The notes under the pieces are model-generated. The model made no database searches. It was not told the origin of the DNA and was given only the letters and a program-made list of their open reading frames with translations. Of a stretch of DNA of 64,000 bases, positions 1,428 through 57,525 are shown one piece after another. Made by a program: the position numbers and the translations under genes. This DNA comes from Moniliella sp. 'wahieum' (Eukaryota > Basidiomycota > Moniliellomycetes > Moniliellales > Moniliellaceae). The stretch's first letter is position 1, and the number at the start of each line of letters is the position of its first letter. Location: positions 124,001-188,000 of the forward strand of contig RSEE01000054.1 in NCBI GenBank assembly GCA_003971905.1. The letters run 5' to 3'.

Positions 1428-2670
1428 ATGCACAACGATCTCGTCGGCAAACACATTGCAGGCGATCGACTCGAGTTTGTCTCCATCATTGGACTCGGCG
1501 CGTATGGAGTAGTTATTTGGCTCGCGATCTGAAGCACCCACTGCATTCTTCTCAAGAACATTGGACGTCCACTTCCATCCAAGCAATGCCCCATGGCGCT
1601 GCTGCTGCAACAGGATTGTACGCTGTCAAATGCCTACATCGCTTGGGGGGCCTCGCCTCGAGCACCTTTCCAACAGCGGGAGATTGCCCTACACAATCTG
1701 GCAGGCACCTACCCATCCGTGGTTACTCTTTATGAGGTACTTCAAGATGCTAGTTGCTACGTCATCATGGACTTTGTCCGGACGGAGATCTCTTCTCCAT
1801 GATCACAGAGAAACATCGGTATTCCGTACAAGGGACAAATCCACCGGGGTCGTCTTCCTCCCACGAGGGCATGTTTCGTGGTTGAGGACGACGAGTATTT
1901 GACAGCGAGGACTGAGATGGATGCCACCATCAAGGATGTCTTTGGGCAGATTGTTCAAGCCGTCGAATATTGCCATGGTCTTGGAATTTACCACCGTGAC
2001 CTCAAGCCCGAGAATATCTTATGCTTGGAAGGTGGCTCGCGAATCATGCTTGCTGATTTTGGTTGGCCACGACGGACAAGAACAGTTCAGATTTTGGTTG
2101 CGGGTCAACATTGTACATGGGGCCCGAATGCCGTGGGGCATCCTTAGCCGACCCAACTTTTACGACTCATCAGCCAACGACGTATGGAGCATGGCGTTAT
2201 CTTGGTCAATCTGGTATGTGGTCGCAACCCATGGAAACAAGCAACAGCGTCGGACGAGACCTTCCGGGAGTTTCTGCGTAACCCTGACTTCCTTATGGAG
2301 ATCCTGCCTATCTCGAGCTCTCTCAACGCGATCCTCAAGCGCATTTTCCCCCTTCCCTGAAGGACGGTGTTCAATCCATGAGGTCAATGCCCTTCTACGC
2401 GGATGTGATCGATTGACTGCAACTAATGCTGAGTTGATGGCACGACACGAAGCGCGACGAGAAACTCACCAGCGGGCTCAAGTTGCTCGTACACATGCTG
2501 CTGAAAAAGACGCCATTTCCACAATAAGTGGTTGTCATGATCAGAAGAATAGCTGCTTGTCACGCGAAAACACCTTGCAAACCCCTCCTATCTCGATCAT
2601 GGAACACCCATGCAAGTCCTTCAGCTCGTTCACGCTTTTTCTACAATCAAGGGCATACACATGCAGCTAA
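1428..2670 (+). CDS. Ran1/Sks1-like serine/threonine protein kinase (frame-disrupted)
   Basis: A protein kinase of the fungal Ran1/Pat1-Sks1-Vhs1 group, which phosphorylates Ser/Thr and in yeasts couples nutrient state to growth or meiosis. The start ATG at 1428 opens MHNDLVGKHIAGDRLEF followed by the glycine loop IIGLGAYGVVYLARD and the lysine motif YAVKCL. The catalytic loop HRDLKPENIL lies near 1995-2025. It is followed by ADFGLATTDKNSSDFGCGS and LYMGPECRG, which is the group's typical activation segment, and then by the subdomain IX-XI text DVWS, GRNPWKQATASDETFREFL and LKRIF. Reading these motifs requires frame changes: one T appears to be missing at about 1515 and again at about 2062, and others occur near 2200 and 2360. 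The tail to 2670 is helical and charged. Family assignment is secure from the motifs; the exact 3' end is not. Confidence 0.85.
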
Positions 2671-2705
2671 TCTAATCGGTCCATTCGCCATCATAAGGCA
2701 AGAGC

Positions 2706-3431
2706 ATGGGCATTGACCACCCGAAATCCTTTAGGGAACTTTCATTCGTTCTCTTCGTCTTTTCGATACATACACACCGCAATTCTTTCTCGCTTCAATC
2801 AAAATGCACAAACGGGGGAGCACCGGCTGTTAATACACTACTGTGTAACGGTTTGAATTCAACCACGGATGATTCCTCCCAAGAGGTTCTTTCAGACAAA
2901 GCTACGGTTGACTCGTCAAAGAACTTCGGGTCCTCTTCTACTGCTCCTACTTCACATTCATCGTCCATTGACTCGTCGGTGCCCAGCCTGATACGCTAGC
3001 ACATTTGCCGCGTATGGGCAAACAAGACAAAGACGCTGTTGCATGCCCTTTCGACTCGCTGTACGGTTTCCCAACCGACAATCAACCGTTCCCAAGTTAG
3101 ATCCGCCCTTCACCCTGGACCAAACTGCTTTAAATGACGGTCACTGCGTATTCCACTACCCTCCCTCCGACTGGCGGTGTGGGTGTATGAGTCAGAAGCC
3201 AATACGGACGACGAACATTGTCCCCCCCTTGAACAACGTAACAAGAACGTAGGGCAAGTGAAGGCATCATTTATAGAACCCAATGGTTCCCACTATTTGT
3301 CGATTCCACTGTGCTTGCTGCAGAAATGGATCGCTGCGGGTGGAGGTCAACTCACCAAGTATAGCAGGCTATACGCGTTCTCCATTAGTACAGAGTATCA
3401 GCCTTTTGTACATGTAGATGAACTACTATAG
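2706..3431 (+). CDS. Hypothetical protein, frame-disrupted
   Basis: I do not recognise this. A chain of three ORFs with natural amino-acid composition runs from about 2706 to a stop at 3431. A Ser/Thr-rich segment ends at 2997, a middle segment contains YGFPTDNQPFP and LDPPFTLDQTALNDGHCVF, and the last segment contains VKASFIEPNGSHYLSIPL. Joining them needs one frame change near 3000 and others near 3090 and 3175, like the indels seen in the neighbouring genes. It could be an independent small gene or a C-terminal extension of the kinase just upstream if the stop at 2668-2670 is itself an error. Confidence 0.3.
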
Positions 3432-13592: not shown

Positions 13593-14334
13593 GACCCTCT
13601 GTGATGAAGCGTCGCGTGCGCGTCCACACGTCACGCTTTGCCTTCAACGTCATATGTTTTTGTTCGTGTAGCAGAGTTTAATTGAATGTTCAGGGCCGCG
13701 GCGACACTTCGCGTTCTGCGTCCACGGTTATAGGTTTGAGACGCCTACAGTCCGGGGAAGGAAACAATCAGGGAGAGGATATATTGATTGCCATGTATTA
13801 ATTCGTGCGGCAAAGAAAAAGGAGGGAAACGGGAAACGGGGGTGGCGACGAAAAGGGAAAGAGAGGACGTCTTCTCACAGATATACTCTCTCTACTAACT
13901 GAGAGAACAGGAACTTGTTACTGAAGACTATATGCACGCGCACACGCACTGATCAGTAGTGGGATCAAGATATTTCGGTGCTCAGTGTTTTACTGCTGAG
14001 TGGTATATTTTCTTAACAACACGTACTTTGGCGCAACCCCACCCCCCGCTTTCCACAGGGGGGAAAAACCTTTAGCGTTCGTCAACCATCATTCCATCCA
14101 CCCCCACTCCTCTCCTTCTGATTTCTCCTTCGCTGTTCACCAGACGCTCCTGATACCGCGCCACCCTATAACTCTTCATCGGCTCTTCGCACTAATGAAC
14201 ACCCGGGTTTCCTGAATTCATGAAGAGAAGATCTCATGGGGAGATGAGTGGGGGAGCAAGCATTTTTGACGCAGGGCAATAATTCCTTGGGATGGACTCC
14301 CCATCCTGCATATATGTGGTACTCTTGGACGCTT
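13593..14334. other. Intergenic, no gene seen
   Basis: Between the retrotransposon and the 3' end of cactin. AT-richer than its surroundings, with no ORF of recognisable content; presumably the cactin 3' UTR plus spacer. Confidence 0.5.
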
Positions 14335-16394
14335 TTACTTCCGATACCGCAGCTTGGTAAAGTTAAAGAAGAGCTGCAGCACCCCGCGCTCGAACGAGTT
14401 GCGGAACCCCTTGCGCCGCCCCATCTCCCACGGCTTTTACGATGCGGAACGCAATGTCCTCGTACGGAGGTCCGGCGCGGAACACCAGGAGCACCGTTTC
14501 CTCCTCGTCGCCCGGATGCGGCGCAGCTCATACGTGGGCGCCTTGAGCGGATCAATCAGGTCGGATAAAAATGTTGAACTGTAGCTCTTGGACCACCTTG
14601 GGTGGTGGGTTGTCGGTATCGTAGTGGGTCTGGTTGTACTTGTTCCACTCAAAGCCGGTTAGCGACGCGGTTCATAAACCGAGGCTTGCGCGGTCGGTAC
14701 TGTTCTCCCACGCATACGTCCCTTTGACTGCCGTCGGCACATTGAACGCTTCCTGGCCAAACGCCTCCACTTCGTCGTCCGAATCCTGGTCCATCGCCCG
14801 CGCTGCATCGGCTTGGTACCGCGCCAGGTCCTCGTCGCCGTCAAAGTCCTCGTCACCCCCACGCACTTCTTCTTGCGTCCCAGTCCGAAGAGCCGGCTTG
14901 GAATGGGAAGCCCGCGCCTTCTCCCTGCGCCATGGGCACAAAGGTTTGGGCCAGTACGGCCTTCCGAACCATGAGGAGAAGGTTCCGGTCTTGCGCCTGG
15001 TCCACGATGGGGAACTGGTCGACAAAGGGAAGGGTGGAGTAGTCGGTTTCTGGGATGGTAGGTGGCTCGAGATCCAACGTAAAGTTGGTTTCGGTGGGAA
15101 CGGAAGAGGGAGGGAGGGACCGCTGGTGAAGGAGCGCGACCTCACGTTGTTTCCTCCGCAAAAACTCGATCCGGTTGGCAAGGACAAGTTTATGGATTTC
15201 CCTCAGCTGGTGCCGTGCTAGGAATACATCATCTTGCGCACCAGCAACAGCCAGTATTCCATATCGATTGGTTCGCCCGAGCTGAGTTTGGCCACGACAG
15301 AGCGCTTCAGTGTCTCCAGTTCGTCCGCCGTCTTGGCCTCGAGCATGCTCTCCATTTTGGCTTGCACCTCGGGCTTGTCCTCGCGCAAAGAGGCAAGTGT
15401 CGTCACACAAGAGTTGAAGGGCATGCCAAAAGGCCCGATTCCGTGCATCCGTTTCGAGAGAGAGGTACATGGCAATGTCCGCCTTCAGCTCCACCACCTC
15501 CCCCTCATCGAGCATTTGAAAGACCGAGTCGGGCTCCTTCAGATCCACTTCCAATCCAGCCTCATCGTCCTCGTCGCCCTCGCCCATCTCCTCTTGCGGG
15601 AGGGCCATGCCATTGCGTTCTGCCAGCGCCATCTCGACCGATTTCGCCGACCGCCGGGCGCCCCGGCCAGGCTCGGCCCAGCGCAAATCATCGCCATCAC
15701 ATCGATTGGTTTCGCCCGATTCTCTCGTATCCGGATCGCAGCTCGCTTCTTGGCCTGCGTCAGAGAAAACTCATCTTCCTTCTCCACCCACTCTATCGCC
15801 CCTGATCCTGGTTCAAGCGAGTCAGTCGCTCCTCTTCCTCCCGGCGGAGCTGCGCCTCCTTCTCTCCGCTGGACTCGGCGGGCGGAGAGGAGCGCAATCT
15901 CTTCCTCGGCCTCTTTCCTCCGCACCTCGTCCCGCCGCCTCGCTTCCTCGGGGGTGAGACCCATGCGTCGTTCCTTCTCTCCTTTTTGCCCATCGCTGCG
16001 GTGGGCGCTGCTCCCTTCCCCGGCATACAGCAGCACCTCTGCCTGCTTTCGCCGTGCCTCGGTTCCTCCTCTTCCAGAGCACGTTTCCGTTTTCTCGCGC
16101 CGGCGCTCAGCGCGCTTGCGGTCCCTCCGCTCCTCATCCGTCTCCGCCGGCGGGGCGAACGTTCTCGCTCATGACGGTGACGAGCATGAGGCGAATCGTG
16201 TCGGTGACGCGACCGGGCGTCCCGGCGGTCGCGCTCTTCGTGCCGCCGCTCGTCGCGGCGATCGCGGTCGTGCTCCTCGTCTCGTCGGGAACGATGTCGG
16301 TCTCGACGGTCGGAGTGGGAGTGGGAATGGAGTGGGAGTGGGAGGAACGGGGACGGCGGTGCGTTGGGGGGCGCAGCGTCAGAGATTCGGGCAT
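14335..16394 (-). CDS. Cactin, spliceosome-associated protein (frame-disrupted)
   Basis: Cactin binds the spliceosome and supports splicing of specific pre-mRNAs; it is nuclear. A plausible start is MPESLTLRPPTHRRPRSS at 16394, followed by an Arg/Asp/Ser-rich stretch (EHDRDRRDERRHEERDRRD, HERERSPRRRRR) typical of splicing proteins. Near 15.8-15.7 kb is the conserved cactin core WVEKEDEFSLTQAKKRAAIR, RENRAKPIDVMAM. The C-terminal domain is clear near 14.6-14.34 kb: DLIDPLKAPTYELRRI, then AGPPYEDIAFRIVK and finally GVLQLFFNFTKLRYRK before the TAA at 14335. Acidic and linker regions lie between. At least four frame changes are needed. It is divergent from the gene at 16.56 kb, with about 165 bp between starts. 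Confidence 0.88.
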
Positions 16395-16559
16395 GGTGGT
16401 GGTGGCGGGGCTGCTGATCAAGTTGAGCACCTGCAAGCTGCTAGCAGCGCCATTCCGCCCTGCGGTGCGGAATGCGCGTGGATTTACCCCAGCTGTGCTC
16501 AGCGACAACCACGTCGCGTCAAGGCAGAGAGGAGGCAGGTCGACTGACAGACACCACCG

Positions 16560-18735: not shown

Positions 18736-20128
18736 CTACGCTATGGGCACGGGCCTAGGTCGCGCCCAGCGCCCCAGTGCATAGTTTAAGCGCAACACTA
18801 CCAAATCCCGGCCCATGCGCACCGAGTCGCGTAACAAGTCCACCTTGGACCCTGAGATCTCGTGCCAGTCCACCGCCACCTCCCCAATCGGCAACGGCAG
18901 CCGTGCCACTCGTCTTCTTCCCGCATCGAGTGCAGGTGTACTTTCTCGGGCGGGGGCGGAGGCCACCATGCGGCGTCCGCACAGGTTCCACCACCTCCTC
19001 CTTTGTCCTCTGCTGCGATCGCCGGGGCAGGCACGCGCCGGGCCAAGCGCGGCTTGTGCCACCTCGGGCTGGGCAAGGGAGGCAGTGGACGCCATCTCGG
19101 CCAGGAGAAGCAGCTCGACATCAAAGATCCACCGATCGATGTGGGCGAGCGGCAGCAGGTGGGCTACGGTGGGGCGCGTGAAGAGTTTGAAGCCGCACTG
19201 GGTGTCAGCGATGGCCGGCTGGATCGGTAGTGATTTCCCCTTGGTGCCCAGGGCAAGGCGGCAGCGACGGTGGGTGCATGAGCAACGAGAGGAGCAGGTG
19301 GAAGCCGTACATGAGCAGATTGCGCACCCACGAGCGCTAGCAACAACGTCAGCCTTCGTACCAAAGAGCACACCCGAGGGAAGAAGAAGAAAGCAAAGCA
19401 GGCACGCACCTTAACCGTGGCCTCGCTGCCGACGAGATGAGCACGAGAGCCAACGACAATGCCGTATCCGGCCGGCGACGCGATCCGCTCCATCTCAGCC
19501 ATGAGGCGGCCCAGGTCCGAGAAGCGAGTGGCGCCATCGGCATCGGCAAACAAGACCAGTTGGCCGCGCGAATGGAGCATGCCATGCCGCACTGCGGCGC
19601 CCTTGCCGCGGTTGTGCTCAAGACGGACGAGACGCATGTCGATGGCGGGGTGAGCGCGGGCATAGGCCAGCACTTGTTCGGCCGTGCCATCGGAGGAGCC
19701 GTCGTCGACAATGAGCACTTCGGGAGTGGGAGCGCGGCCGCGCAGGCGCGCAGGCAGCGCAGCCAGGGCGGCGGCAAAGGCGTCGGAGGCGAGATAGGCG
19801 AGCGCGTCGTCGAGCATCTGGGGCAAGCGCTTCGTCTCGTTGAAGGCGGGCACGACCACCGACACGTCCACGTCACCTGGTGGCACGCACGCTGTCGGAG
19901 AGCGCCGGGGGCAGCGGCGCGGCCTCGTCGGATGGGCGGAGCGGAAGGTGCGCTCGGAGGCGCAGAGGGGCTGCGGGGCAGGCGTGGCGAGCACGAGGAG
20001 CGCGCGCGTGGCGAGGACGAGGACGAGGAGCGGCGCGAGCACCAGCGCCGCCGCCACGCGCGGGTCCGACGACAGCCGCCCAGCGCCGCGCACACAGACG
20101 ACGCCACGCCCGCGGCCAGCGCAGCCAT
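18736..20128 (-). CDS. ALG5: Dolichyl-phosphate beta-glucosyltransferase
   Basis: Transfers glucose from UDP-glucose to dolichyl phosphate at the ER membrane, supplying Dol-P-Glc for N-glycan assembly. A start at 20128 gives an N-terminal membrane anchor (VAAALVLAPLLVLVLATRAL, one frame change needed). The GT2 domain follows: DVDVSVVVPAFNETKRLP, VLIVDDGSSDGTAEQVLAYA, HNRGKGAAVRHGML, VLFADADGATRFSDLGRL and VGSRAHLVGSEATVK. A 73-nt intron (19337-19409) separates this from RSWVRNLLMYGFHLLLSLLM. The second half carries DTQCGFKLFTRPTVAHLLP and DRWIFDVELLLLAE, and ends EVAVDWHEISGSKVDLLRD and RLNYALGRW. Between DVELLLLAE and EVAVDWHEI there is a lineage-specific insertion of roughly 60-70 residues, absent from yeast Alg5. 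Divergent from the arrestin gene. Confidence 0.9.
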
Positions 20129-38514: not shown

Positions 38515-38940
38515 GGTGGTGGGGATGGGGATGGAGGGTGGTGGGGATGGGCTACACCACAAGCAAAGCCAGGGCTGATGTCGTCGAGCCATTGGTTGTT
38601 CCTGCCGCTCTGAGTCACGCGGAAATTCCATTCCGCCTGTTCCGCTGACAAGTCGGGGCCGAGGCAGCGTGCGGCACGTGACATGTGTTTCAGGGCCTGG
38701 TTATCAGTACCAGGGTGCAGTTACAAAAGTTGGTCGTTGTGCCTGGGGGGTTGGCCGCGCCGGTTGGGTGCTTTCGTCCTGTAGATGTCGTCCTCCTTGG
38801 CAAGGACAACAAGAATGCATTGGGAGCGCATCGGCAGGATAACAAGATGGAAATGGTGTATGCAAGCAGATCGTGCAGCCTAGTCGCTTTTCATCGACAG
38901 GCACAACACTGCGTGTGACCCAGCGAAGCTTTTCAACGCT

Positions 38941-41108
38941 TCAAGCCTCCTCCTCCTTCGGGCGGGGAGTGGGTGGCAGGTACTGGGCCAGGGGCAGCAC
39001 GGTGGCCCAAGCGCGTAGTGGTGGAGGCCGAGTCAACACGCCTCAAGCCGGTAGCGACAGCAACGGTGGCGGACGAAGGGGCGGGAGGCCAAGGCGCTTT
39101 GCCCCACTCGGTTCCGGCCAGCCCGTGTCAAGGGCAACTGCGACGCCGACGCCCGTGACGCGTTCGGGTTCATGTCCCAGACTGGATAGTACGGCGGGGG
39201 GCATCGGCGGTGGGCGAGTCGAGGATGGCCAGTTCCGGGGGCGAGAACCACCTGGGAAGAAGGTTAGTACCGCACCGGGATTAAGAGGAGGATGATCACG
39301 GGGAACCCAAGTCCCGCCAGGGTTTGGGAGATGGCGATGGTCATACCGAAAAAGGTCCATTGGATGGCGGTGAAGAGAAAAATCTTACGTCGCCGGACCC
39401 TCAACAGGGGGTTGGAAGGGTCGGCCATGGTGCGGTCTGGACCAGGCGAGAGCGCGTTGAACCAAATGGTTCTGCTCAATCGACCCCCATCCCACCAGGA
39501 GAAAGAGCCGGCAAACACGGCGCGCGGCATGAGCCCAAGGCAAACGAGGAAAGGGCGTGTCATGGTGGCCAGTGTCAAGGCGCCAATGGCCAGGTGAGAA
39601 ACTCGTTGCTCGACCACGCACGTTGCGGATCTCCTGAGGGGCGGAACGGGGGCCGGCAGGGAGGGAGCCGACCACATCTTGCTCCATTTGGACGGTGCGA
39701 ATGCGCTTTAGCTCGGCATACGATGGTTCTTCGGTTGAGCAGCGCTCTGCCTGATTCAAAGTAGGGTGTGGTGGTGGTGGTGGGCCTGGTCCACCTGGCA
39801 TAGATTGAGAGAGTCGGTATGTTCAGGAGCTTGGGGCACGAGTCCAATTCGGAGCCGGAAGCCCGAGAAAGCCAGAGACGAGCGTGGTGGCAGCGAGGAC
39901 AGCCATGTCCCAATGGAAGCCTGCCGGCGTTCGAACGGGGAATTGACGCCTGAGCCATGACGGAGCTAACATTGTGGTCAAAGTAGAAGAGAGCATGACA
40001 AGAAAGCCAAAAGGGGCAGCAACAAAGACCCACTTGACATCAATGTGCCAGAAATCGACAAACCACCCGCGGTCCATGGTGGGGAACCAAGAGCGAGTGA
40101 TCGGCACCCGTTCCAACGGCACTGTTTTAAAGATTCGTGGGGAAATGCGGAAGGCCCGTCCAAAAAATGCAGCCGGCAGTAAAGGCGTAGGAGCCGATCC
40201 CCATTCGTACACGGAAGGGAAGAAATGATGTTCTTCCTACGCCGCCGAGACAAGGTAGACGCTGACGGTGAACAAAATGGCAATCGTCACCGACAGCCAC
40301 CCGGTCGCTTGTCTCTGGGGCTCGGCTCGAATTCATTGATCGCAGCTCGATCCCCTTTTGAATGTAGACGACTCCCACATAAAAGCCAAAGGTCTGTGAG
40401 GTCATGTCGGTGTGATGAAACGGGTATAGTCCGACATGTTGAGCGCTGCTCCGGCAAACAAGAAGCCAGCGGCCCAGATGAGCATCCATGCCTGAAAGCG
40501 CAGGTAATGGAGGTGGTCAAACCCCCAATGGTGGACTGTAACATGTACATGATGTAATTGCACAGATTGATCAGCCCAGTCACACCCACAAAGGTCAGAG
40601 GTTGGCACCCAAAGATGGGGAAGACGATGGCGGCCAAAGCGCTGGCAAGGATAACTTCGTTCACACCGTACACACCCATGCGTGCGGTGGTTCATGTCGA
40701 GGACATACGCAATAGCCGGCATGAGACTGGGTGCTCAAGTTAACCATGCGAACGTGTACAGCCGATGCAGGAAAGACAACGTACTTGATAAAGTACATGC
40801 GCACAGTCGAGTCGAGAAGAGTGTACCAGTTGCGCGGCGCACAAGCGCTGGTCCAGTCAGCGATGAGAGGCAGACGACGGCGCACATCGTAGTACATGCC
40901 TCGGAACGGACAGAATTGGTACATCCAGGACCGTTGTGACCAGGGCAGATCGCCGGAAAAGATGGGGTAGCCTGGGTCGTCGGAAGAGGAGGGTGAAGAC
41001 GCGGGGTGGCAGCGACGGAGGAGAGAGCTCCTCCTGGAGGCGGGAGCGAAGCTTGTCATTGTCCATGCTCCCCACATGGGGCGTCGCATCCACATCCGCG
41101 TCTGGCAT
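38941..41108 (-). CDS. BOR1: BOR1-type anion/borate transporter (frame-disrupted)
   Basis: Member of the SLC4-like bicarbonate/borate transporter family; fungal Bor1 exports borate at the plasma membrane. The start at 41108 reads MPDADVDATPHVGSMDNDKL. FRGMYYDVRRRLPLIADW is followed by LLDSTVRMYFIK, a 58-nt intron (40727-40784) and LMPAIAYVLDMN. Next comes the hallmark loop YGVNEVILASALAAIVFPIF with GCQPLTFVGVTG. Further membrane parts run in reverse topological order along the strand: GIGSYAFTAGCIFWTGLPHF, VDFWHIDVKWVFVAAPFGFL, TLVSGFLGLPAPN near 39.85 kb, and a C-terminal hydrophobic pair near 39.5-39.3 kb. The tail YLPPTPRPKEEEA ends at the TGA 38941-38943. Note the order: the cytosolic text and the conserved loop appear early because the gene is read from 41.1 kb down. 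Multiple frame changes (for example near 40.68, 40.5, 40.2, 39.8 kb). Confidence 0.85.
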
Positions 41109-41750
41109 TTCTGCCCTGGCGCCCCCTTGCGCTGTCAGGAGGAGGAGGAGGTGGTGGTGGGTGGAACAGGGAGCCGGCGGGTGTTGGAGTGTTGCTGCCA
41201 GAGGGAGAGCATATGGGAGAGCTGCGAGCGCGAGCAGCGGGAATCACGTGATGCTTACTATGTGCTGCTATGGATACGAGCCAAGGGTTCCATCCCAGAC
41301 CATCTCTCTGGTGCCTCGATCGATGGGGAACGACATGTACTTTTTGGTTGACAGACAATCCTACTGTCAACCCGTCCTACTGACTAGCGCCCTTCCTCAC
41401 GCACCCCCCGCCGCGGTTCTCTCTGTCTGACACACATCCCACAACAACCTGTAGGACGACTACCACATTCTGCTGGGGGGAGGATGGCCTAGTGCCAACG
41501 CTGGCTTGGTTGCTGGACATGGAAATTGGATCGGTTGCTCATCAGTGCACCAGCACGCCCCGATGGGTTCCCTGGGAAACGCAAGGGGCAAGCAAGCGCC
41601 GGGCGGGCGTGGCGGGCAGATAGAGGGTACAAGAACAAACACGCAGTGGTCGGGTCGCATGGGTTACAGGCTCACAGGCCAGAGCAAGCACACAAGAACG
41701 GCAAAGCAAGGCAGGATGCGAAGGGCGGATAGGGAGCACGCAGTACGACT
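41109..41750. other. Intergenic, no gene recognised
   Basis: Between the BOR1 start and the 3' end of the Hrp1-like gene. Short ORFs on both strands only; presumably the BOR1 promoter and the neighbour's 3' UTR. Confidence 0.4.
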
Positions 41751-43466: not shown

Positions 43467-43536
43467 CATCCTACAGGCATCCTACAGTCTCCTACAGTCT
43501 CCTACTACAGTCTCTTACGGTCTCCTACAGTACAGC
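43467..43536. repeat. Imperfect 10-bp tandem repeat, TCCTACAGTC unit
   Basis: About seven degenerate copies of a CCTACAG/GTCTC phrase lie between the Hrp1-like start (43293) and the CCT6 stop (43542), 175-245 bp upstream of the Hrp1-like ATG. On the minus strand the unit reads GACTGTAGGA. It may be a promoter repeat or just a microsatellite-like expansion. Confidence 0.6.
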
Positions 43537-43541
43537 TCCAA

Positions 43542-45230
43542 TCAATCATTCGAATCATCGACGCATCGATCAGCCGGCGGGCTACGGCCCCTTGAGGCTC
43601 GTCCGCCCCGCCGGAGGATGGTGTCGGTGGCGAGGATCTGGGTGGCAATCACGCTTGCCGCATGCAGCAGGTTGCGTTTGACGCGGTAGTTGTCCCACAC
43701 GCCCAGCGCCGCCATGTCCGCCGGCTCGCCCGTCGCCACGTCCAGGCCAATCGTCGGGGTGGCGAACAGGTCCTGCTCTTCCGCCGCCGCCGCCGCCTCG
43801 TCCTCGAGTGCGACGAGCGTGTCCAGCTGCTCCAGCCCCGAATTGACGGCGAGCGTCTTGGGCGTGACCAGCAGGCCTCGGCAAAGGCAGTGACGCCGAG
43901 CTTGGCCTTGCCCTTGGCCTTCTTGGTGGCCACGTGCCGCAGGTAGCGCGCCGCGCCCACCTCGAACGCGCCGCCGCCCGGGATGAGCGCCTTGTCCTCG
44001 ATTGCATTCTTGGTCGCACGCAGGCCGTCGCGCAGGGCATCCTGGATTTGCTGGGTGGTGTGCGCGTTGGGGGCGCGGATGAGCAGGGTGACACTCTTGG
44101 GGTGCTCCACTTTTTCTACAAACGTAAACTTCTCCTCGCCCAGCGTTTGCTCGTAGACCAGACCCGCGTAGCCCAGCACTTCTGGCTTCAAGTCATCCAC
44201 CGAGTTCTGCGCCTCGCCGCCGCAGGCGAGCTGGAGACGTTCCATGTTGCGCCGCTTGGCGCGGCGGAGGGCGAGGATGCCGTCCTTGGCGAGCATGTCG
44301 AGCGAGAGCGGGTCAATGCCCTTTTGGTTAAAGATGACAAAGTTCTTCTTGGGAGCCGACGGGTCCGCCTTGGCCGGCTCGTCGCACACGGCGCGCTTAA
44401 ACTCAATAATCTTGCGCACCTTGGCATCCACAAACCGCCGCTCGCTTTCCACCAGCTTCTCGCGCTGCTCGGCCGAGGAGTAAAAGAAGCCCGAGTTGAC
44501 CTCCGTCTTCTCGTACTCGAGACTGACATTGAGCGTCAACACGTATGCGTTTTCCACCCGGCGCGGCATGTCGGCGTGGCGCGCGCCATGGTCCAGGACC
44601 AGGCCGCGGACCAACTGGGTGTCCGTCTCAGACTTGTGCACATCTTGAGAATCTCAACCATGTGCAGATCAATCGGTTCGTTCTCCTGCTTAATGGCCAA
44701 CACCGCATCCACCACGTCGGCAGCGAGTTGCTTGGCCAGCTTGCCACGCAGCTTGGTCCCCAACGACGTTTGCGCCACACTCACCAGCGTGGCCCGGTCC
44801 ATCGTCGGCACCACCCGCACCTTTTCCAGGTACTCCAGTACTGCCGTTTGGCTACATCGTACCCTTCGCTCAGGACGCGCGGGTGCAGCCGGTCGTCGGT
44901 CACGTACCGTTCCGCTTGCTTCAGCAGCTCGCCCACCAACAACACCACCGACGTCGTCCCGTCGCCGCACGTTTCGTCCTGCGCCACCGCCGCCTTGGCG
45001 ATCATGGCTGCAGTCGGGTTCTGGATCTGCATCTCGGTCAAGAGCACCTTGCCGTCCTTGGTCATCTTGAGGTTACCACTGCCATCCACCAGCAACTTGA
45101 TCGTCCCGCGGGGGCCCAGGTTGGAGCGCACCACGTTCGCCAGCCCCACGGCACCGGCAATGTTGACCTGCAGCGCCTGCTCGCGGCGCACGGCCTCCGC
45201 ACGGGGGTTGATCATCTCCAGCGCACTCAT
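43542..45230 (-). CDS. CCT6: T-complex protein 1 subunit zeta
   Basis: Zeta subunit of the cytosolic chaperonin TRiC/CCT, which folds actin and tubulin. ATG at 45230 gives [20 protein letters not shown], the standard CCT6 N-terminus, then [20 protein letters not shown], the substrate/ATP motif [20 protein letters not shown] and [20 protein letters not shown]. The apical domain includes [20 protein letters not shown] and [20 protein letters not shown], and the C-terminal equatorial part ends [20 protein letters not shown], close to the stop at 43542. The zeta identity rests on the N-terminus and the [12 protein letters not shown] phrase. The length of about 560 codons fits. No introns seen. 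Frame changes near 44.85, 44.65 and 43.88-43.67 kb. Confidence 0.93.
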
Positions 45231-45643
45231 CTTGAACGGGTGCTTCCAGCGACAAGGGAGAGGAGCAAGAGCTAGGGCAGGAAGCGGCGATGGAGGGGTG
45301 GCGCACCAAAAGAAGACAACGCGTCCCACGCTCGGCGGGCCTCGCGGGAGGGGGCGCGCGGAATGCTAGCGGGAAGAAAGCGGTCGAAGCGCAGCGCAGC
45401 GCCAGTCTCGGTCCTGCTCTCAGTCAAACTTTCATTTTCCATGGCCCCGCCACCTCCTTGCGGACGTATTTATTACCCTCTCGGAGTCAGTAGTCCGCCT
45501 GGCGAGCAGCGCCACATCTTCCTGCCGAGGTGGCCATCGCATCTGCACTAATAAGAGCAACACACTATACACCAGGCCACCTTCCACACACACATCCTAG
45601 CAGAACCGTCACATCCTCATCATCACAATAGGGCAACGACAGG

Positions 45644-46515: not shown

Positions 46516-46856
46516 CGTGCAACGGTTACCGGGTCTGTGGGTACGAGTGTAATCCGCAAGGGGTGGTGGAAGGGGAGGGGGATGGAGAGGAAGGGCAAGC
46601 GAGCGCATCTGACCTCTGACATCAGATCTCTGATTCGATCATTTAATTTCAGGACCTACTTGCAGTGCGCACTTGCTAGTTACTCGTAGCCCTGTCCGAG
46701 CGGCGGGGGGCCAACTGGCGGAATTGGCGCTGGGGGCGGAACAGCCGCGAGGATTTTTAGGCGAGCTGGCAGCGAGCGGACGAGCGCTGCGCCAGGGAAC
46801 CCACTTGGCCTGCCTGCTCTCCTCCCGAGTCACACCTCGGCCGGACCCACCCACCG
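46516..46856. promoter_or_regulatory. Bidirectional promoter of LSO2 and eIF2B epsilon
   Basis: A 341-bp gap between two divergent translation-related genes. It contains an imperfect inverted repeat around 46612-46636 (ATCTGACCTCTGACATCAGAT). No consensus TATA is evident on either side. The 5' UTRs must lie within it. Confidence 0.5.
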
Positions 46857-49244
46857 ATGCAAGCCAAGGGAAAGCCAGGCAAGTCGGTGTCCAAGCCCAA
46901 GGCGGGTGCCAAGGGCGCCAACGCCAAGTCCAAGCCTGCCCGGAAGAAGGAAGGGGAGGAGGAGGAGGCGCTGGTGGCCGTCGTGTTGGCCGACTCGTTC
47001 AATGGGCGCATGCTGCCCTTGACGGCCGAGCGGCCGCGGGCGTTGGTGCCGCTGGTCGGGGTGCCGCTGCTGGACTGGACGTTGGAAGCGTTATCGATGG
47101 CCCAGGTGGAGCATACCTTTATCCTTGTCCGTTCGTTTGCGGACCAAATCAAAGCGCATGTCGCTGGTCGCAAGGGAATCACCGTCGTGCCCATCCCGAG
47201 CGCGATGAGCGTCGGCGACGCAATGCGCGAGCTGGACAATGCCAAGCTGATCAAGACGGATTTCCTGCTGGTGCATGCGATGGGGTGGGCAACTTGGATT
47301 TGGAAGAGGTGGTGCGGATCCACAAGGAACGACGCAAGGCCGATAAAGATGCGATCTTGACGCTGTGCACGATGGGTGCCAGCGGCGACAGTACGCGGCG
47401 ACCGGCCGGCGACCGGAGTTTGATGGTGATCAATCCGCTCACGCACGAGCTGGTGCACTACGAGTCCATCCCGGCCGTGCCGCACAAACGAGCATGGTGC
47501 TCCCGGTGCGGCTGTTTGATGCGGACGAGGGCACGGCGGATGTGGAAGTGCGCAACGATCTGGTGGATTGCGGGGTGGACGTGTGCAGTGTGGATGTGCC
47601 GCCGTTGTTTACGGAAAACTTTGACTACCAACAACTGCGTCGCGACTTTGTCCCGGGCATCCTCACCTCGGAAATTTTGACCGCCAAGATTTTCTTGCAC
47701 GTTGCCCCGGCCTCGCCGTTGGGCACGGCCGCGCCCAGCGCGCTCCTGCCCCGTGCTCCTGTGGCGTGGGACACGCGCATCGGACGCGGATGGGGGTACC
47801 ACATGCGTACGGGATACCAAGACGTACGATGTGGTGGCCAAGGACATTGTCGGCAAGTGGATCACGCCCCTGGACCGGGCGGGTACTTGCCCGGCCACGA
47901 TGGCGGCTTCACCTCCGCCTACCCGGCCGGGCGCTACCAAGCACCGGGCGTGTACCTCAGTCTCTCGACCGACATTGGCAAGGCGACCGTCTTGGGCCGC
48001 GACGCACGGGTTGGCAAACACACATCCATTTCCCATTCCATCCTGGGGGACCATACCCAGGTGGGGAATCAGTGCCGCATTGCGCATTCCTATCTCTGGT
48101 CGGGGTGGTGATCGGGACAAGGTGGAGATGGACCATGTGATTCTGGGGACAAGGTGCGGGTGGGCACGGAGGTACGGCTGGGCCGTGGGTGCGTGGTGGC
48201 AGATGGATGCGTGGTGGGCGATGGCGTTTCTCTCCCGCCGTTTACGCGGGTGGGGCGGATTTCCTATGGCGCCTACCTCGGGCGCTCGAGCAAGGACGAG
48301 CCTGCTTCTGTCCAGCTCGGTGCGGGGGCGTAGGCCATTTGGCCCTCCCATACGGCCGACGATTCGGACGAGGAAGAGGAAGAGGAAGAATCCGATCGAA
48401 GCATGGACCAATGCGTCTTACTTGCAAATCGGACGCGAGAGTCCGAGCCCAACGGACGACGAGGATGTATCGTCGATTGATGGCGACAGCGAGCTGGCAT
48501 CTTCGTCCGACGAGGAGAGTGATACATCGGACTCGCCTACGGAGGAGGACAAGGCGGCTCTGACGGTGACCGAGGGCCAAGCGACCGCGCCGAGGCCCAA
48601 GCCGAGGTGAACAAGATCAATGACTTTTACCAAGAGGCGCTGGCCTCGCTCCAACGCGCTGAGAAGGAGGGCCACCGTAAGGAGAATGTGGCGATCGAAC
48701 TGTCAACGTTACGGATGGCATCAAATGTGGAGCAGCGCGAGTTGGTCGCCGTCGTATTACCTGGATCCTGCAGCAGGCCAAGCCCGACCTGCGTGAGCTG
48801 GGCAGTGTGCTGCAAAAGTGGGGCAGTCTGCTGGCCAAGATAGCAGAGGGCGAAGAGACGTTTGCGATCAGTGCAATGCAGTCCTACTGTGCCGTCACGC
48901 CGGGCTTCCGCCCGCTGTTCGGGCCGCTGCTATGGGCTGCTACAACCTTGCGATCCCGGCGGAGGAAGGGGAGGAGGACGAGGATGAGGAGCAGGGCATC
49001 ATTACCGAAGAAGGTCTGATGCAATGGTACAAGTCACGTGCCTCCAATGTGCCGGACGAGTCGGTGGAGCGGCTGCTGGCGCTGCCTGCACGACTCAAGG
49101 GCAGTGGGAACGAGACGACCAAGGTGCCGGAAGAGGCGGTGTTGGAGCTGCGTGGGCAGGGGAGAGGTGTTGGAGTCGATTCTGGAGGAGTCGGATGAGG
49201 ATTCGGACGAGGAGTCGGAGGAGTCGGAGGAGGAGTCGGACTAA
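46857..49244 (+). CDS. GCD6: Translation initiation factor eIF2B subunit epsilon (frame-disrupted)
   Basis: Catalytic subunit of eIF2B, which exchanges GDP for GTP on eIF2. ATG at 46857 opens MQAKGKPGKSVSKPKAGAKG, a Lys-rich leader. The nucleotidyltransferase-like domain reads LVAVVLADSFNGRMLPLTAE, RPRALVPLVGVPLLDWTLEA and LDNAKLIKTDFLLVHAMG. Hexapeptide left-handed beta-helix repeats follow at about 47.98-48.3 kb (KATVLGRDARVGKHTSISHS, ILGDHTQVGNQCRIAHSYLW). An acidic linker DEDVSSIDGDSELASSSDEE leads to the W2/HEAT domain (NKINDFYQEALASLQRAEKE, CAVTPGFRPLFGPLLW, IITEEGLMQWYKSRASNVPD). The extreme C-terminus is very acidic (ESDEDSDEESEESEEESD), as in the family's AA-box tail. Frame changes near 47.28, 47.5, 47.75, 48.1-48.35, 48.77 and 48.93 kb. 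Confidence 0.92.
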
Positions 49245-49355
49245 TATATGACGACACTAGCGGGTACGAGAAAAATGCGCATCTGGGATTTTGCTACAGC
49301 AGCGAAAGGGACTTTTAAGTAGAGTGGGACACAGGACAGTGGTATCGTGGTTGGT

Positions 49356-49703
49356 TTACACCCTCGACCGTACCGGTTCGAGGCCCTCGATGGAGGTGAC
49401 GCTGTTGCCACGGATGACCTGGGGTAGATGGGGTTAGCAGGGACAGCGGCACGACAGCAGCGCAGGCAAGGCAGGACGTACAACCATGCCGCACGGCGCA
49501 GCGTCGACCCAGGCATGCTGGTTGAGGCCGCCGCCGCCGTTGGGAGCGGGCGGGTGGACCTGCTGGACGGCCTTGTCGATGACGAGGTTGAGGAAGACGT
49601 CGTACCCACGCAGGGTGCCTGTGACCTGGCGGTCGCCCTGGAGGGCAACGCGCACCTGCTTGTCGAGGTAGCGCTCCAGCTCGGGCTTTGCGACCTGCGC
49701 CAT
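49356..49703 (-). CDS. SMX2: Small nuclear ribonucleoprotein SmG
   Basis: Core spliceosomal Sm protein, part of the heptameric ring on U1, U2, U4 and U5 snRNAs. ATG at 49703 starts MAQVAKPELERYLDKQVRVA; Sm1 motif: GTLRGYDVFLNLVIDKAVQQ. An unusual Pro/Gly-rich loop (PAPNGGGGLNQHAWVDAAPC) precedes GMV. A clean 63-nt intron (49419-49481, GTACGT...CTAAC...CAG) joins GMV to VIRGNSVTSIEGLEPV, the Sm2 motif, with the TAA at 49356. About 94 residues, slightly longer than the usual 76-80 because of the loop. The reading frame is intact. It is divergent from the 5-phosphatase gene. Confidence 0.95.
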
Positions 49704-49939
49704 GGCGGGGGGGATGGAGGAGGGGAGGCGTGGTGGTGGGGGGCGGGGGCAAGCAGAATACAGCGGGCGGAATGAAGCAGCTGGGGGTGAGTTGATTCCG
49801 GCGGAGGGGGTCACGTGCCAGCGTGACATGTCACATGCATCGCGTGTCACATTTAGAATTTGAAATTGGAATGGGAAGTAGGGATGACGTCACAGGAGCA
49901 GATGGGGGGTAACCCACACCTGAGTTTGTATTTCTGGCG

Positions 49940-50187: not shown

Positions 50188-50213
50188 CCGTCGGTTCGTT
50201 GCCATCAAGTGCG

Positions 50214-53200
50214 ATGCCCCCGCCCCCCCCCACGCTGTGGCAGCTCAGCCGGGAGGAACAGCCGCTGCGCCCCGCCGCAGCAACGCCCCGCCGCTCCAAC
50301 AAGCCGGCCGAGCAGCCACCCGACGCACACGACCCCCACTTCCACCAGCGCCTGTGGGAGGCCCAGTACCGCGCCGCACATGCCCCTGAGCGTGCCTTGA
50401 TTGCGCGCGCACGCCACCCGCCCGCCTCGGGCCTCCGCCGCCCAGCACCCGCCCCAGTGCCTGCTCCATCCGCCTCAACCTCAACCTCAGCATCAACAGC
50501 AACCTCGCCATCAACCTCAACATCAACCTCACCATCCGCATCCGCACCCGCATCGCCCTCGTCCGACACCCCGCCCGCTCCGTGCCCCCCTCCTCCCCCG
50601 CCACCCCCACTCGTCCCCGCCGCACCCAAACGCTGAGGCCAGCCGGCACCCCGTCGGCCTCGGCCGCACCCACCAGCGTCCCTCATCCCCCCGCCCCCAC
50701 ACTTCCCGCGCCCTCGTCGTCTCCGTCCACGATGTCGCCCTCCGCCTTGTCCCGCCGCACATCGCCCACGCACAAGAGTGACGCAATGGGGGAGGCACCG
50801 CGCCCGCTGCCGCCAAGCTGGCGCAGGAACAAGCAGACGCACCTGACGACGCCTTCCTTGCCCTCGCTCACCACCTCTCTGCTCCGCCCCACTCCGTCTA
50901 AGGGGGTGCACACCGCCCCTTCTTCCCCCAGTCGGAGTGTCCCGACGTTGACTCCGATCCACTCCTCCTCCACTCACTCTACCTCGAACCTTCGGCCCGG
51001 AGCACGTTGCCGCCCACACCCCGCATTGGCACCCCCGCCAGCACAGCACGCTCCCCTTGGTCGTCGGGGCTGCTGGAAGAGGAGGGAAGCTACACGAGCG
51101 AAGGCTCGGCGTACTCGGACCTGGACTCGTCCGACTCCGAGTCAGACATGGACACGGGCAGTCCAACGGTGCGTTGGTCGGCGTACCAGGCGCAGATCGA
51201 ACATCGTCTCGTCGATGATGACCGCCACCACGGCCCTGATGGTGAGAGGGAGGTGGGGGATGTGGTGCTGCATGGCCCAGCGGGCGGCGTCGCTTCCTCC
51301 CCCCCGTCCCCGAGTACGACACGGGCGGTATATCCGGCCAGGAAAGCAAGATTACCTGGGCTCCACGCAAACCTGCCCCTCCCGTTCCGTTGTTCCGGGC
51401 GAGGGGAGGCGGAGGAGACCGGGGAGGACGAGGTGGTGGGCAGTGCCAGTTCGCTGGTGGTGCATGCGCGCTTTGCCGTGTTTGCCGTGTCGGGTCCGAC
51501 GGTGCTCACGGCCCACAACCATAAAGTCAAAATCTTGCGTGCTGGGACGGTGCGTGCCGAAGTGGCCGGTCTGAGCGAGCCCACTCGGTTGGCTAGTACC
51601 CCCACCAGCGCGGCTGGCAGTACAGCCAGTCTTGCCAACGCTCCCGAGAAGGTAGCTACGATCCAAGACCCGGACCTTGTGCTGCAGGGACGTGTGACGG
51701 CGCTGTGCTTCCTACGGCCTACGGGGACGGAGGAAAGCGCTCGGTATGCATGGGTGGGCACGACGAGCGGGATGCTGTGGGAGCTGGATGTGGTCAATGA
51801 GGTGCGCACTGCGCTCAACCGTGGGTGCACAATGTGGCGATTGTCCGCATCTCCCGCTTGGGCGACCGCATCCTGGTTGTGGACGAGAGAGGCAAAATGT
51901 CCATCTGGTCGCCCTGGCGAGCCAACGCAGACAATTCGGCTAGCGCCCCACCGCGCTCTTCGTTGGGATTGGGAGACAAAACAGCGTCTGCCCGGGGTAG
52001 CACCGAACAGACGCAGGATAAAGAGGAGGCAGCCAGCCTCCCATCCTCCCGCCTCTCTGGCGGACTGACGGACAAGCTGTCTGCCGAGAAGAGTTCATCG
52101 GACCCTTCCACCCGCATGCTCACCACCACCCCTGTCATCCAGAAGTTTCCCGTCGAGGGGAAACACGTTGTGCCGCTGCTGGTGGGCGATCAGTTGTGGG
52201 TGGCAACGGGCGGGGCGACGTTGGGTACCTACCATGCGTCGGAGCCTGGCAGTACGGCACAAGGATCGGGTCACCGCCACAAACATTCCCTCCACCGCTC
52301 CATCCGTAAAAGTTTGCGCCGTGCGGCCGACCTCGCGTTTCATGGCGCGGGAGATCACACGCCTGCCTTTACCCCCAACCTGCGCGACATTCGCCTGCAG
52401 ATCTTCACGCCCCTTGCCAGTGCCGATGACGACCCGAGCAAGGCGCTGTCGGTACCTCCCCTCTTGCCTTCTATCGTGGCGGGGGATGATCGGTCCAGCC
52501 ACGGCGGCAGCCACGGTGCCCTGCTCCCCTGCCACCGTCTTCATCTCGCACACGACAGGCCATGTAAGTTCGCCTGTCCCTTGGCCCTTTTTGTCTCTGT
52601 CTCCTGTCTCCTGTCTCCTGCAGGTCCTTTATCCCTGACTTTTTCCATAAGACGCCCTACTGACTGGCCCACCTCCAGATCTCCGAATGGTCCCGCACGT
52701 CGTACCAGTGTGTGCGGTACACCAGAACGCATTGGATGCGATCCTGTGTATGACGGCTGCCGGACGGTACCTCTGGGCCGGGACAAAGGGAGGCAAGATC
52801 TTGGTATTTGGCCTGGCGGAGCAGAAGAGCGCGCGCCAGCATGCCGGTTGGTGGTGGTCAAATCCTGGGTGGCGCATGGCGGCAACCCCGTTACGCGACT
52901 CGTGACGGACCCCGATGGCATTGCGCTGGGTCGACTGCAGGTCGTGAGCGGCGGGATGGACGGGGCGGTGAGGGTATGGGATGGGCTCTTGACGCACGAT
53001 TGGTTTGAGCGTCGCATTGGCCGCTCCTTGCCGCACGTAGCTACCTCGCGCACCATCCGCACGCTCCATGTGACGTACAATGTCGATGCGGCCGATCCGC
53101 TGCTTCTCCAAAGTCCCAAGGGCAAAACGGAGAACCGGGAATTTCTACAGGACCTTCTTCGAAGTGCTGGACACGCGCCGCCGGTAACGATGACGACGCG

Positions 53201-54560
53201 TGCCACGGAGTCAATCAAGCCGGTTGGCCCCGAGGTGATTGTGTTTGGGTTGCAGGAACTGATTGATCTGGAAGACAAGCGATTGACAGCGAAAAGTCTC
53301 TTGTTGGGCAAGAAGTCGACGACCAACAAGAAATCCGTGGGCAACGACGTGGGCGACCGCATCTCGCACCAATATGCCGCCTGGCGCACCGCGCTCATCA
53401 CCGCCGTCGCCGACATGTTTGGGCAGGGCAAGTACGAGCTGGTGCAGTCCGAGTTGCTAGTGGGCCTAATGACGTGCGTGTTTGTCTCGGTGCAAGAGAT
53501 TCGCGCCGGCACGCTGTCCGAAGCGGCGGTGGGCACGGTCAAGACCGGCTTTGGAGGTCGGTACGGCAACAAGGGCGCTGTGGCAGCGCGCGTCGTGCTC
53601 GACGATACAAGCTTGTGCTTTGTCAATTGTCATTTGGCCGCCGGCCAACGCCACGTCCAAGCGCGCAACACTGATGCCGCTACCATTCTCACCGCACCCA
53701 AACTCTTCCCCAAAAGCGCCGCGGCCGCCAGCACGCTCCCGCCCGGACCCCACACCGCCCCCGGACCCATTCCCCCGGCACTGCGTCGCACCCTCGCCTT
53801 TACCCGTGGCGGCGACGGCGAGCAAATCTTGGATCACGACATTGTCTTTTGGAGCGGCGATCTGAACTGTGCGTCCCTTGCCCCTTGCCCTTCCCCCGTC
53901 GTCCCTTTGCTTTGCTCTTTGCCCTTTCGCCTGTGGTGAACGAGAAATGTAGCGCTAACATCGAGGGATCGCGTCTGGTAGATCGGATCGACCTTACGCG
54001 GAACGAGACGCTGGGGTACCTGCACACGGCAACCTCGCCGCTCTTCGAGATGTGGACCAGTTGGGCAGCCAAACTTGTGGCAATGCGAGTTTTGCGCTGC
54101 GCGGGTTTGTCGAAGCGCCAATCGGGTTTGCGCCGACGTACAAGTACAACCACCTGTCTTGCGAGTACGACACGTCGAGCAAGCAACGTGTGCCGGCATG
54201 GTGCGATCGGATCCTGTGGTGCGATGCCGGGGCGACGTTCCCGTCGAGGTGCGTGCGCGAGCACGACGCGGCGGACGACGAGCTGGTGGAGCAGGTGCTG
54301 GGTGCGGCCTCGACGCCCGTGCCCGCTCGCGAGCCGGCGTTGCGGCGCGGCCGCAGTCGGTGCAGGGCCACAGCTACCGCTCCTGGCCCGCTAGCATCTC
54401 GGACCACCGCCCCGTGTCGAGCCAGTTTGATGTGCGCGTGCAGCGCATCGAGCCGGGCAAGCTGGCTCGGCTGCTGCCGCGCTTGCGCCAAGAGTGGGCA
54501 GTGGTCCAGGCGGCGGCTGGACGAGGCCAAGCTGTTTTACCACACCAGCATCCCAGCTAA
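50214..54560 (+). CDS. WD40-containing inositol polyphosphate 5-phosphatase (frame-disrupted)
   Basis: Removes the 5-phosphate of phosphoinositides or inositol phosphates. ATG at 50214 starts [20 protein letters not shown]; about 900 bp of Pro/Ser/Thr/Ala-rich disorder follows. A WD40-like propeller region is seen from about 51.4 to 53.0 kb ([77 protein letters not shown]). The IPPc domain follows: [43 protein letters not shown] and [11 protein letters not shown]. The first catalytic signature FWSGDLNYRIDL is created by splicing the 113-nt intron 53869-53981, and the second, PAWCDRILW, lies near 54.2 kb. [16 protein letters not shown] closes the domain. A further intron spans 52564-52678. The stop at 54560 is uncertain by frame. 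Domain order resembles plant and fungal WD40-5PTases. Confidence 0.88.
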
Positions 54561-54756
54561 ACTACCCCACACGGCTCCCCTGCCCTGTCCTGCTCCTTTG
54601 GCTTTCTATGTAGCCCCTCGGCAGCGCCTCGCGGGATCGGTTGTATGTTGCTTGCATGTGTATATGTATAGATGGACATGGATCGGAAGTTCCCCCCCCC
54701 CCTGCCATCCACGTCCGCGGTGCGCTGTGCGCCGTGGGCCCAACCCCCGTAGTGCC

Positions 54757-57476
54757 TTAGATCTCGCCGGCCTTCTGCGCCTCGAGAAACTTTGGTGGAG
54801 CCGGACCTGGGCCTTGAACTCTTTATCGAGCGCCTTGCGGCGCGACTTGGACAAGGCTTCGCCCTGGGCATCGGTGAGCGGGATGCCCTGGTCGTCGTAC
54901 GTGGCATACTTGGTGCTGGCATCGGGGGCGGAGCGGAACAAGTCGGCCGGGGCGTGCGACCTTTTTGCCAGAGAGCCAACTGCTTGGCGCGCGCGGCCTG
55001 TTGCGCAGCCTGTTTGCGCGCGGCTTTGTCCTGCGCCGCCTGCTCGCGCGCCGCGCGCGCCGCCCGCATCTCCGCCGGCGGCACAAACTTGACCAACGCC
55101 GGACCCGTCGTGCTGTCCTCCAACGTCACCCCCAGCTCGTCCAGACGGCCATCGTCTCGTACCCGGTCGCACAGCGCCAGCAGTTCCTTCGGCAAGGCGG
55201 CCGGCTCCGTCGTGCGCGCCAGCGCACGCACCTCGTCCCGGAACTGAGACAGCAGCGTCACGTACGGCGCGACCAGCTGTTCTTTATCGACCGTTGATGT
55301 GGATGCAGAGGCGGAGGCGCCTCCGCTCGCCGCCCCGTCGTCGCGTCGGCGCCGGCGCAACGCCCCAGCCAAACTGCGTCTCGGTAGGGGACGGGTAGGT
55401 GAGGCCCAAGATGGAGAAGAGGTGGGTCATCCAGTGCACGACCGACAGCAGCGTGGGCATGTGCACGTGCACGGCCACGGGCAGATTGGGCTTGTTGCCA
55501 CTGTCGAGGTACACGTTGGTCTCGCCAATCAAGTCGCGGACCAAACGCAGCGCGAGCGGCGTATCAAAGTTGTCCGCCAACGCGAGGCGCACGGCATGCT
55601 GGGTGCGACCCAGCGCGGCTGCCAAGCTACTTTCGCGGTGCGTGTAGCCATGCGTGATGCCCTCCCCGCTGGGCAGAGGTGGGTCGAGCGCTTGGGCCTG
55701 CGCCGTGGCGTCCGACCCGGCCGCCTGCTGCGCGGCCAACACACGCGCGCGCACGGTACGGAACAAGTTGTCCGTCGCGGCCTCGAACCGGCGCACCTCA
55801 TCAATCGCCTTGGCACTAAAGTCCATCCTGCGGTCCCACGGCTGGAAGAGGAACGCAAGACGCAATTGGCGAGGGCTGTACTGGGCCAAGGCATCGTCGA
55901 CCGAGATAAAGTTCTTGAGCGACTTGGACATCTTGGCGCCTTCAATGTGCAGGTGGCCCGTGTGGAGGAAATAGTTGATCCACTGGTACGTGCCGTGGTA
56001 CGCCTCGCTTTGGCCAGCTCATTGTCGTGGTGCGGGAACTTGAGGTCCTCCCCGCCGGAATGAATGTCAATTTTCGGACCAAACACCGCGCTGGCCATGA
56101 CACTGCACTCAATGTGCCATCCTGGCCGGCCAGGACCCCAGGGCGACGGCCACGCCGGCTCGCCGGCTTGCTGCTCTTCCACAGTGCAAAGTCCGCTGCA
56201 CTCTTCTTGCCCCGGGTCTGGGCCGCGCCCACCGACAGACTGCCCTCGCCCTCGGCAAGCAGCGCCGAATCCGTCTTGCTCGCCGGGCCAACTTGGCGTA
56301 CACGTGGTGCAACGTGGTGCACTGTGTGTGTTGGCACGATGCGCCTTGCTCTTGCGCTGGCGCTTGGCCTTCGACCTGCGCCTGCGCCACGGGTCCACCG
56401 CCGCCCCATCAAACGCACGCACATCAAACCACACATTGCCCGCCGCGTCGGCATAGCCAAACCCGCGCTCTACAATCCGCTCCACAAACGACACGATCTC
56501 CGGCACGTACTCGCTGACCCGGGTCAGTGTCGTCGGACGCTCCACATTGAGCCGTTCCATGTCGTGGAAAAATGCCGCTTCCCACCGGGCGGCCAAGGCG
56601 CGGAAAATCGCAGGATCCGTCACGCTTGCCCCCTTGGCCGCATCCAAGTACGGTGCCAACACATCCCCCGCTGCCGTGTGCAGCGCACTGGCATCCTCCC
56701 CGGCTGGCGCCAGCTTGGCTGCCAGCAAGCCATCGCGCGCCGACTGGACGCAGTCAGATGCTTTTGAGCTTGGCGCTGCTCTCGGCGTTGGCTGGGGTGC
56801 CGTCAGGCTTGGTCAACGGCGTTTGGCCAGGGCTCTGCTCGTGGGCAGCATGGGCGGTACGGACGGCTTCGAAGATCGCTTCGGGATCGGGCGTCGACTC
56901 GTGCGGCGGCGGTGTGGTCCAGGCGGCAAGGTGGGTGAGCGCGTAGGCATCGGTCGCGCGCCGGACCTGGTCCAGCAGGGCCGGGGAAAGCGTAGGCTGG
57001 GCGGTGCGGTTTTCAGTGAGGAGGAACTGCTGGCGGGCACGCAGGATGATCTTGTCATCAATGTCGGTGATGTTCATGGCAAAGTGCACGTCAAAGCCAA
57101 AATAGTCGCGGAGGATGCGGCGGATGATATCCTGGGTCACATAGTTGCGTGCATGGCCCATGTGCGACGCATCGTACACCGTCGGCCCGCAGTTGTACCA
57201 CGTCACGACGCCGTCAGGGCGGACGGGGACAAAGAGGTCCTTGGAGCGCGTCAGGCTGTTCTGCATGCGCAGCGGCACGGGCACCGGCGCTGGCGCGTGC
57301 GGGCGCAGCCAGGGGGCTGGGCAGCACTCATGGCGGTGGCGGAGGTGCTGAGGAAGCGGCGGGGAATGGAGGTGGAGGGCGAGCGGGAGAAGGAGAAGAA
57401 CCCGTGGCTCATCAACCAACGCAGCAGCCGCGTCGACGGGAGGAGAGGAGGCGGTGGTGGTGGTGGTGGCCAGCAA
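54757..57476 (-). CDS. Cysteinyl-tRNA synthetase (frame-disrupted)
   Basis: Class I enzyme charging tRNA-Cys. The frame is open from 57476 ([20 protein letters not shown]), giving an N-terminal extension of about 65 residues before [19 protein letters not shown]; an alternative ATG is at 57331 in another frame. Core motifs: [20 protein letters not shown] (HIGH equivalent HMGH and the zinc Cys), [78 protein letters not shown] and [20 protein letters not shown] (KMSKS) near 55.9 kb. An insertion of roughly 60 residues separates the VWFDV segment from WHIEC. The C-terminus is Lys/Ala-rich, ending [13 protein letters not shown] at 54757. Frame changes near 56.76, 56.45, 56.0, 55.4-55.25 and 54.97 kb. 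Confidence 0.92.
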
Positions 57477-57525
57477 AATTCTTCCGCCCTCGACGTCGCC
57501 GAGCAGCGGAGAGAAAGAATGATCG

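Follow-up and report, generated by a model that had tools for sequence, protein, structure and literature searches.

Genes and features of the window

The window analysed here, a stretch of 64,000 nucleotides, corresponds to bases 124001-188000 of contig C54 in the Moniliella sp. 'wahieum' genome assembly, which comprises 69.49 Mb in 223 contigs. Its genes, which as a set look fungal on inspection, are listed in Table 1. Two of the names are taken over from a preliminary description of this DNA, namely MSH5 for the MutS gene and CCT6, rather than another CCT subunit, for the chaperonin gene. By eye, the minus strand at 11112-12974 shows ORFs of Gag-like character that include a zinc-knuckle-like motif; judged from their sequence, they probably represent the remnant of a retroelement. 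Elsewhere in the genome, eight weak matches to the bacteriorhodopsin family are listed (contigs C8, C39, C15, C43 and C23), none of which adjoins any of the seven guanylate cyclase matches listed, so that the rhodopsin-guanylyl cyclase fusion typical of Blastocladiomycota is not seen among them.

Table 1. Genes of the window, with profile matches and with frame changes relative to the copy on contig C47
Gene or stretch	Position	Strand	Matches and reading frames
Protein kinase	1428..2670	+	PF00069 matched in a single frame of three; by eye, frame breaks near 1512, near 2062 and further downstream
Cactin	13601..16500 (region searched)	-	PF10312 and PF09732 each split over two frames; PF09732 on same diagonal; no intron room
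ALG5-like glycosyltransferase	18739..19950	-	PF00535, profile 1-105 of 168, one frame; ALG5 naming by eye
MSH5-like MutS gene	23401..26900 (region searched)	-	PF05192 and PF00488 fragmentary, both below Pfam cut-off
Sulfate permease family gene	28201..31000	-	PF00916 in three frames, abutting or overlapping profile ranges
Threonyl-tRNA synthetase (ThrRS)	35901..38730	-	12 frame changes needed relative to two C47 stretches
HCO3- transporter family gene	39201..41150	-	PF00955 pieces in two frames; may be intron-separated
CCT6	43501..45400	-	4 frame changes relative to two C47 stretches; aligner placed no intron
eIF2B epsilon	46700..49300	+	PF25084; 16 frame changes relative to an 861-codon C47 frame without interruption
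SmG-like gene	49201..49900	-	LSM domain PF01423, profile 2-43 of 66, one frame
Inositol polyphosphate 5-phosphatase (INPP5)-like stretch	52869..53936	+	Single frame open for ~1 kb in window; one frame change in C47; naming by eye
Cysteinyl-tRNA synthetase (CysRS)	54601..57600	-	Domain split over two frames; 3 frame changes relative to four C47 stretches
UPF0598 (DUF4505) gene	57896..58648	+	PF14956; open in window; 8 frame changes in C47 copy

Frame switches in the deposited sequence

In the window as deposited, the pieces of several Pfam domains pass from one frame to another without leaving room for an intron. The CCT6 domain is matched at profile positions 1-102, 100-170 and 172-408 in three frames and the Sulfate_transp domain at 1-100, 100-187 and 146-379, again in three, the pieces abutting or overlapping in both cases. 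The CactinC pieces share one common diagonal in two frames, and the CysRS domain affected is PF01406. The preliminary description had held nearly every long gene to be broken. This stands for ThrRS, CysRS, CCT6, eIF2B epsilon, cactin and the sulfate permease, on the strength of domain pieces in several frames and of frame changes relative to C47, but it is somewhat too strong as a general statement, since the INPP5-like stretch is clean over about 1 kb. The kinase breaks that it had placed at about 1515 and 2062 were seen by eye at practically these positions (Table 1). A further break, in the Walker A region of MSH5, had been assigned to a C5 run at 24612-24616; the run exists, but by eye the break can also be placed some 5-10 bases upstream, which makes its tie to the run uncertain. 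SmG and UPF0598, which had been described as clean, do show their matched domain parts in one frame, as does the ALG5-like gene, but all three matches are partial.

A sister copy on another contig

Positions 400000-424500 of contig C47 are collinear, in inverted orientation, with 34.7-59.5 kb of the window, which is the stretch that was compared. Protein stretches derived from C47 were aligned to the window with an aligner permitting both frame changes and GT-AG introns of at least 35 bases. Between 3 (CysRS) and 16 (eIF2B epsilon) frame changes were needed in the compared stretches of the four genes ThrRS, CysRS, CCT6 and eIF2B epsilon (Table 1). The aligner placed no intron in the stretches of ThrRS, CysRS and CCT6, nor in the full-length eIF2B epsilon alignment, which contains two in-frame stops; an intron did result for a single short alternative frame of the eIF2B region. 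The breaks run both ways, as eIF2B epsilon is open on C47 and broken in the window and UPF0598 is open in the window and broken on C47. In the 23,473 aligned bases, counted irrespective of coding status, single bases are missing at 133 places in the window and at 71 in C47; there are also 93 other gaps of a length not divisible by three (non-3n), 46 gaps that keep the frame and 1,109 mismatches. At 49753-50630 the window carries a repetitive stretch of coding-like appearance (by eye); the alignment to C47 breaks up there, and the copies therefore differ in this stretch.

An alignment of four ThrRS copies (1,286 bp) assigns nine private deletions to the window (eight of a single base and one of three bases), six to the copy on C7, two to that on C10 and none to that on C47, and private insertions are absent from all four. 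The C47 copy is nevertheless not clean: it shares with C10 a single-base deletion at an A4 run, where its domain match changes frame.

Copy number in the assembly

The Cpn60/TCP-1 family is expected to comprise about nine genes, CCT1-8 and Hsp60. A hand count of profile matches gives 40 loci in this assembly, of which 38, including that of the window, were compared (one locus on C7 and one at C1:1141 kb were left out). These loci, for example L039-L058 and L062-L074, are spread over many contigs and fall into nine groups (A-I) of three to six copies each. Within a group, near copies are 93-99% identical and more distant ones 80-90%. By family match, group I would correspond to Hsp60 and the other groups to CCT subunits. 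Strong matches to ThrRS number six (C54, C47, C10, C7, C21 and C18) and those to CysRS four (C54, C47, C10 and C7), with weaker ones on further contigs. With groups of three to six copies, this is an uncollapsed polyploid or multi-haplotype assembly.

Indel spectrum across copies

Chaperonin genes elsewhere in the assembly, on many contigs, show frame breaks as well. Polarised totals refer to the six chaperonin groups with at least four compared copies (29 copies, 47,584 bases); groups E, G and H, with three compared copies each, are excluded from them and from the substitution phases. With ThrRS added, the set amounts to 33 copies and 52,747 bases. Alignment ends (20 columns, or 15 in the four-copy ThrRS alignment) were not counted. 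Private indels in the 33 copies are overwhelmingly frame-breaking, 143 being non-3n and 11 in-frame, and 139 of the 143 lie within well conserved columns. At least one private non-3n indel is present in 29 of the 33 copies and in every compared copy of groups A, B, C and D. L051 of group F and L062 and L056 of group I have none, L051 and L062 carrying shared ones. The 29 chaperonin copies contain 121 private deletions, 87 of them of one base and 22 of two. Private insertions in these copies number 16 and private substitutions 256. Their non-3n indels are private in 127 cases and shared in 15; the corresponding figures for ThrRS are 16 and 2.

In the coding blocks of 18 copy pairs (L074 being a member of two), gaps of 1, 2 and 3 bp number 145, 30 and 9, without any excess of threes. 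The near-identical copies on C28 and C11 differ by 5 mismatches and 33 gap openings over 5,525 aligned columns and, within the coding block of 1,653 bp, by 4 gaps and no mismatch at all. Breaks are unevenly distributed, from 0 to 20 per copy with a mean of 4.3 and a variance of 22.1 (33 copies), a wider spread than expected from a uniform error rate. Single-base gaps occur at 5.0 per kb in coding blocks and at 7.5 per kb outside; because they are rarer in coding blocks, some of the non-coding ones may be real.

Homopolymers and sequence context

Homopolymer-length errors are described as the commonest residual type in long-read-only bacterial assemblies in the Polypolish abstract (PMC8812927), and the preliminary description had placed the breaks often at homopolymers. 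Per base of coding block, the pairwise rate is about 4 per kb for runs of 1-2 and 12-20 per kb for runs of 3-5, roughly a 3- to 5-fold rise in gap counts that cannot separate deletion from insertion. Runs of at least four hold 7 of the 87 polarised single-base deletions of the chaperonin copies, a mild excess (8% versus a background of 3.5%). However, runs of length one account for 47 of these deletions and those of length two for 25, together 72 of 87 (83%, background 88%), and 99 of the 145 pairwise single-base gaps are likewise at runs of 1-2. Homopolymers thus contribute, but most breaks lie elsewhere, unlike what is reported for the bacterial assemblies. The sequence context of the deletions is otherwise weak and limited to triplet enrichment, CGG being found at 13 of 123 private single-base deletions (2.9 expected) and GAA at 8 (1.6 expected).

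Breaks common to two contigs

Seventeen non-3n gaps, 15 in chaperonin genes and 2 in ThrRS, are present in two or more copies. Several depend on the alignment, and some consist of the identical deletion in two contigs: L053 and L073 (C22/C20), L051 and L069 (C16/C4), L045 and L070 (C43/C51) and the ThrRS copies on C10 and C47 each share the same single-base deletion. Such identical deletions are more than independent random error would produce. They could reflect systematic error, shared reads or real, inherited mutations. A minority of the breaks, chiefly those that two separate contigs have in common at one site, could be real null alleles carried by a tolerant polyploid, a reading that we rate as unlikely.

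Codon constraint on broken copies

Private substitutions are distributed over codon positions 3, 1 and 2 as 221:38:27, and even in the ten copies with five or more breaks as 59:17:13. Local codon phases were used for these counts because in groups C, D and F the phases taken over the whole alignment lost their sharpness. Between the window and C47, with codons within five of a break masked, synonymous and nonsynonymous codon changes number 32 and 2 in ThrRS, 26 and 3 in CysRS, 30 and 5 in CCT6 and 56 and 29 in eIF2B epsilon, a sum of 144 and 39. The constraint is weakest in eIF2B epsilon, where 29 of 85 changes are nonsynonymous, a share above that of the other three genes. From the third-position bias and the synonymous excess it follows that the broken copies are still constrained as proteins. 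The loss of codon-position bias that would be typical of pseudogenes was looked for in the chaperonin copies and in the window/C47 genes, and was not seen.

Origin of the frame breaks

Taken together, it is highly probable from the sequence comparisons that the frame breaks are uncorrected base-level errors of the assembly, mostly single-base deletions, and that the genes are intact in the organism. The assembly would have held the several near-identical copies of the genome separate, and bases, mostly single ones, would be lacking from the consensus of many contigs, C54 among them, at a density of up to several per kilobase. In the organism, the genes would be intact in frame, the losses going back to noisy reads or a consensus of low depth and not to events in the cell; the reads themselves were presumably long and noisy. 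Uncorrected single-base deletions had already been proposed in the preliminary description, and the proposal is sustained by the non-3n spectrum, the excess of deletions, the mostly private nature of the breaks, the preserved codon constraint and the lack of a clean copy in groups A-D. Several observations count against it, namely the shared non-3n gaps, the lower frequency of single-base gaps inside coding blocks, the uneven break counts and, in eIF2B epsilon, the higher nonsynonymous share and the two in-frame stops; they weigh less than the evidence in its favour, and for most breaks assembly error is much the simplest explanation. The accompanying argument of the preliminary description, that the loss of all these genes would be lethal, must take into account the three to six copies of the chaperonin genes, the six of ThrRS and the four of CysRS; once these are counted it holds, because for several genes no examined copy is clean.

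The same copy numbers are what gives some room to a second explanation, according to which a single intact copy of each gene suffices in a polyploid and the redundant copies collect real frameshifts. Homeolog decay after polyploidy produces frameshifts in redundant copies, which is the likeness to the present case, and the open frame of eIF2B epsilon on C47, set against its 16 breaks in the window, would fit such a process, as would the frameshifts common to two copies. Unlike in homeolog decay, however, codon-position bias is kept here in the broken copies, and several genes are without a clean compared copy: private non-3n indels affect all compared members of groups A to D, and all four compared ThrRS copies are broken, that on C47 by the deletion shared with C10. 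Moreover, indels can outnumber substitutions, as they do between the C28 and C11 copies, and the broken copy alternates gene by gene between C54 and C47. Polyploid decay as the general cause of the breaks is therefore very improbable.

Introns misread as frame breaks would require intervening sequence between the domain pieces. Introns may exist elsewhere: the ThrRS pieces on C21 lie 109 bp apart at profile position 254, and one poorly conserved stretch in chaperonin group C may be an intron. Against this, the aligner, free to place introns, chose none in the three gene stretches or the full-length eIF2B epsilon alignment compared with C47, and the domain pieces meet end to end or overlap in CCT6, in the cactin C-terminus and in part of the sulfate permease, so that introns have hardly any chance of accounting for the breaks. 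A restoration of the frames in the cell by programmed frameshifting or RNA editing might suit breaks in essential genes with conserved coding content and the enrichment of CGG and GAA at deletions, but programmed sites should persist in all copies, and with private non-3n indels so far in excess of shared ones in the 29 chaperonin copies (127 versus 15) we attach next to no probability to it.

Implications for the annotation of this genome

Assembly error as the source of the breaks has a counterpart in long-read draft assemblies, in which, according to the Kastor abstract (PMC12007338), indel errors add frameshifts and stops so that genes mimic pseudogenes. The breaks described here share this indel-made, pseudogene-like appearance and differ from that account in concerning a eukaryotic genome with several uncollapsed copies. 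This copy redundancy provides a means of measuring assembly errors without recourse to the reads. With 29 of 33 copies carrying a private frame-breaking indel, gene predictions, pseudogene calls and intron counts derived from the assembly would be unreliable. Claims of gene loss in this organism are premature until the assembly has been corrected, because the breaks are almost certainly sequencing mistakes.
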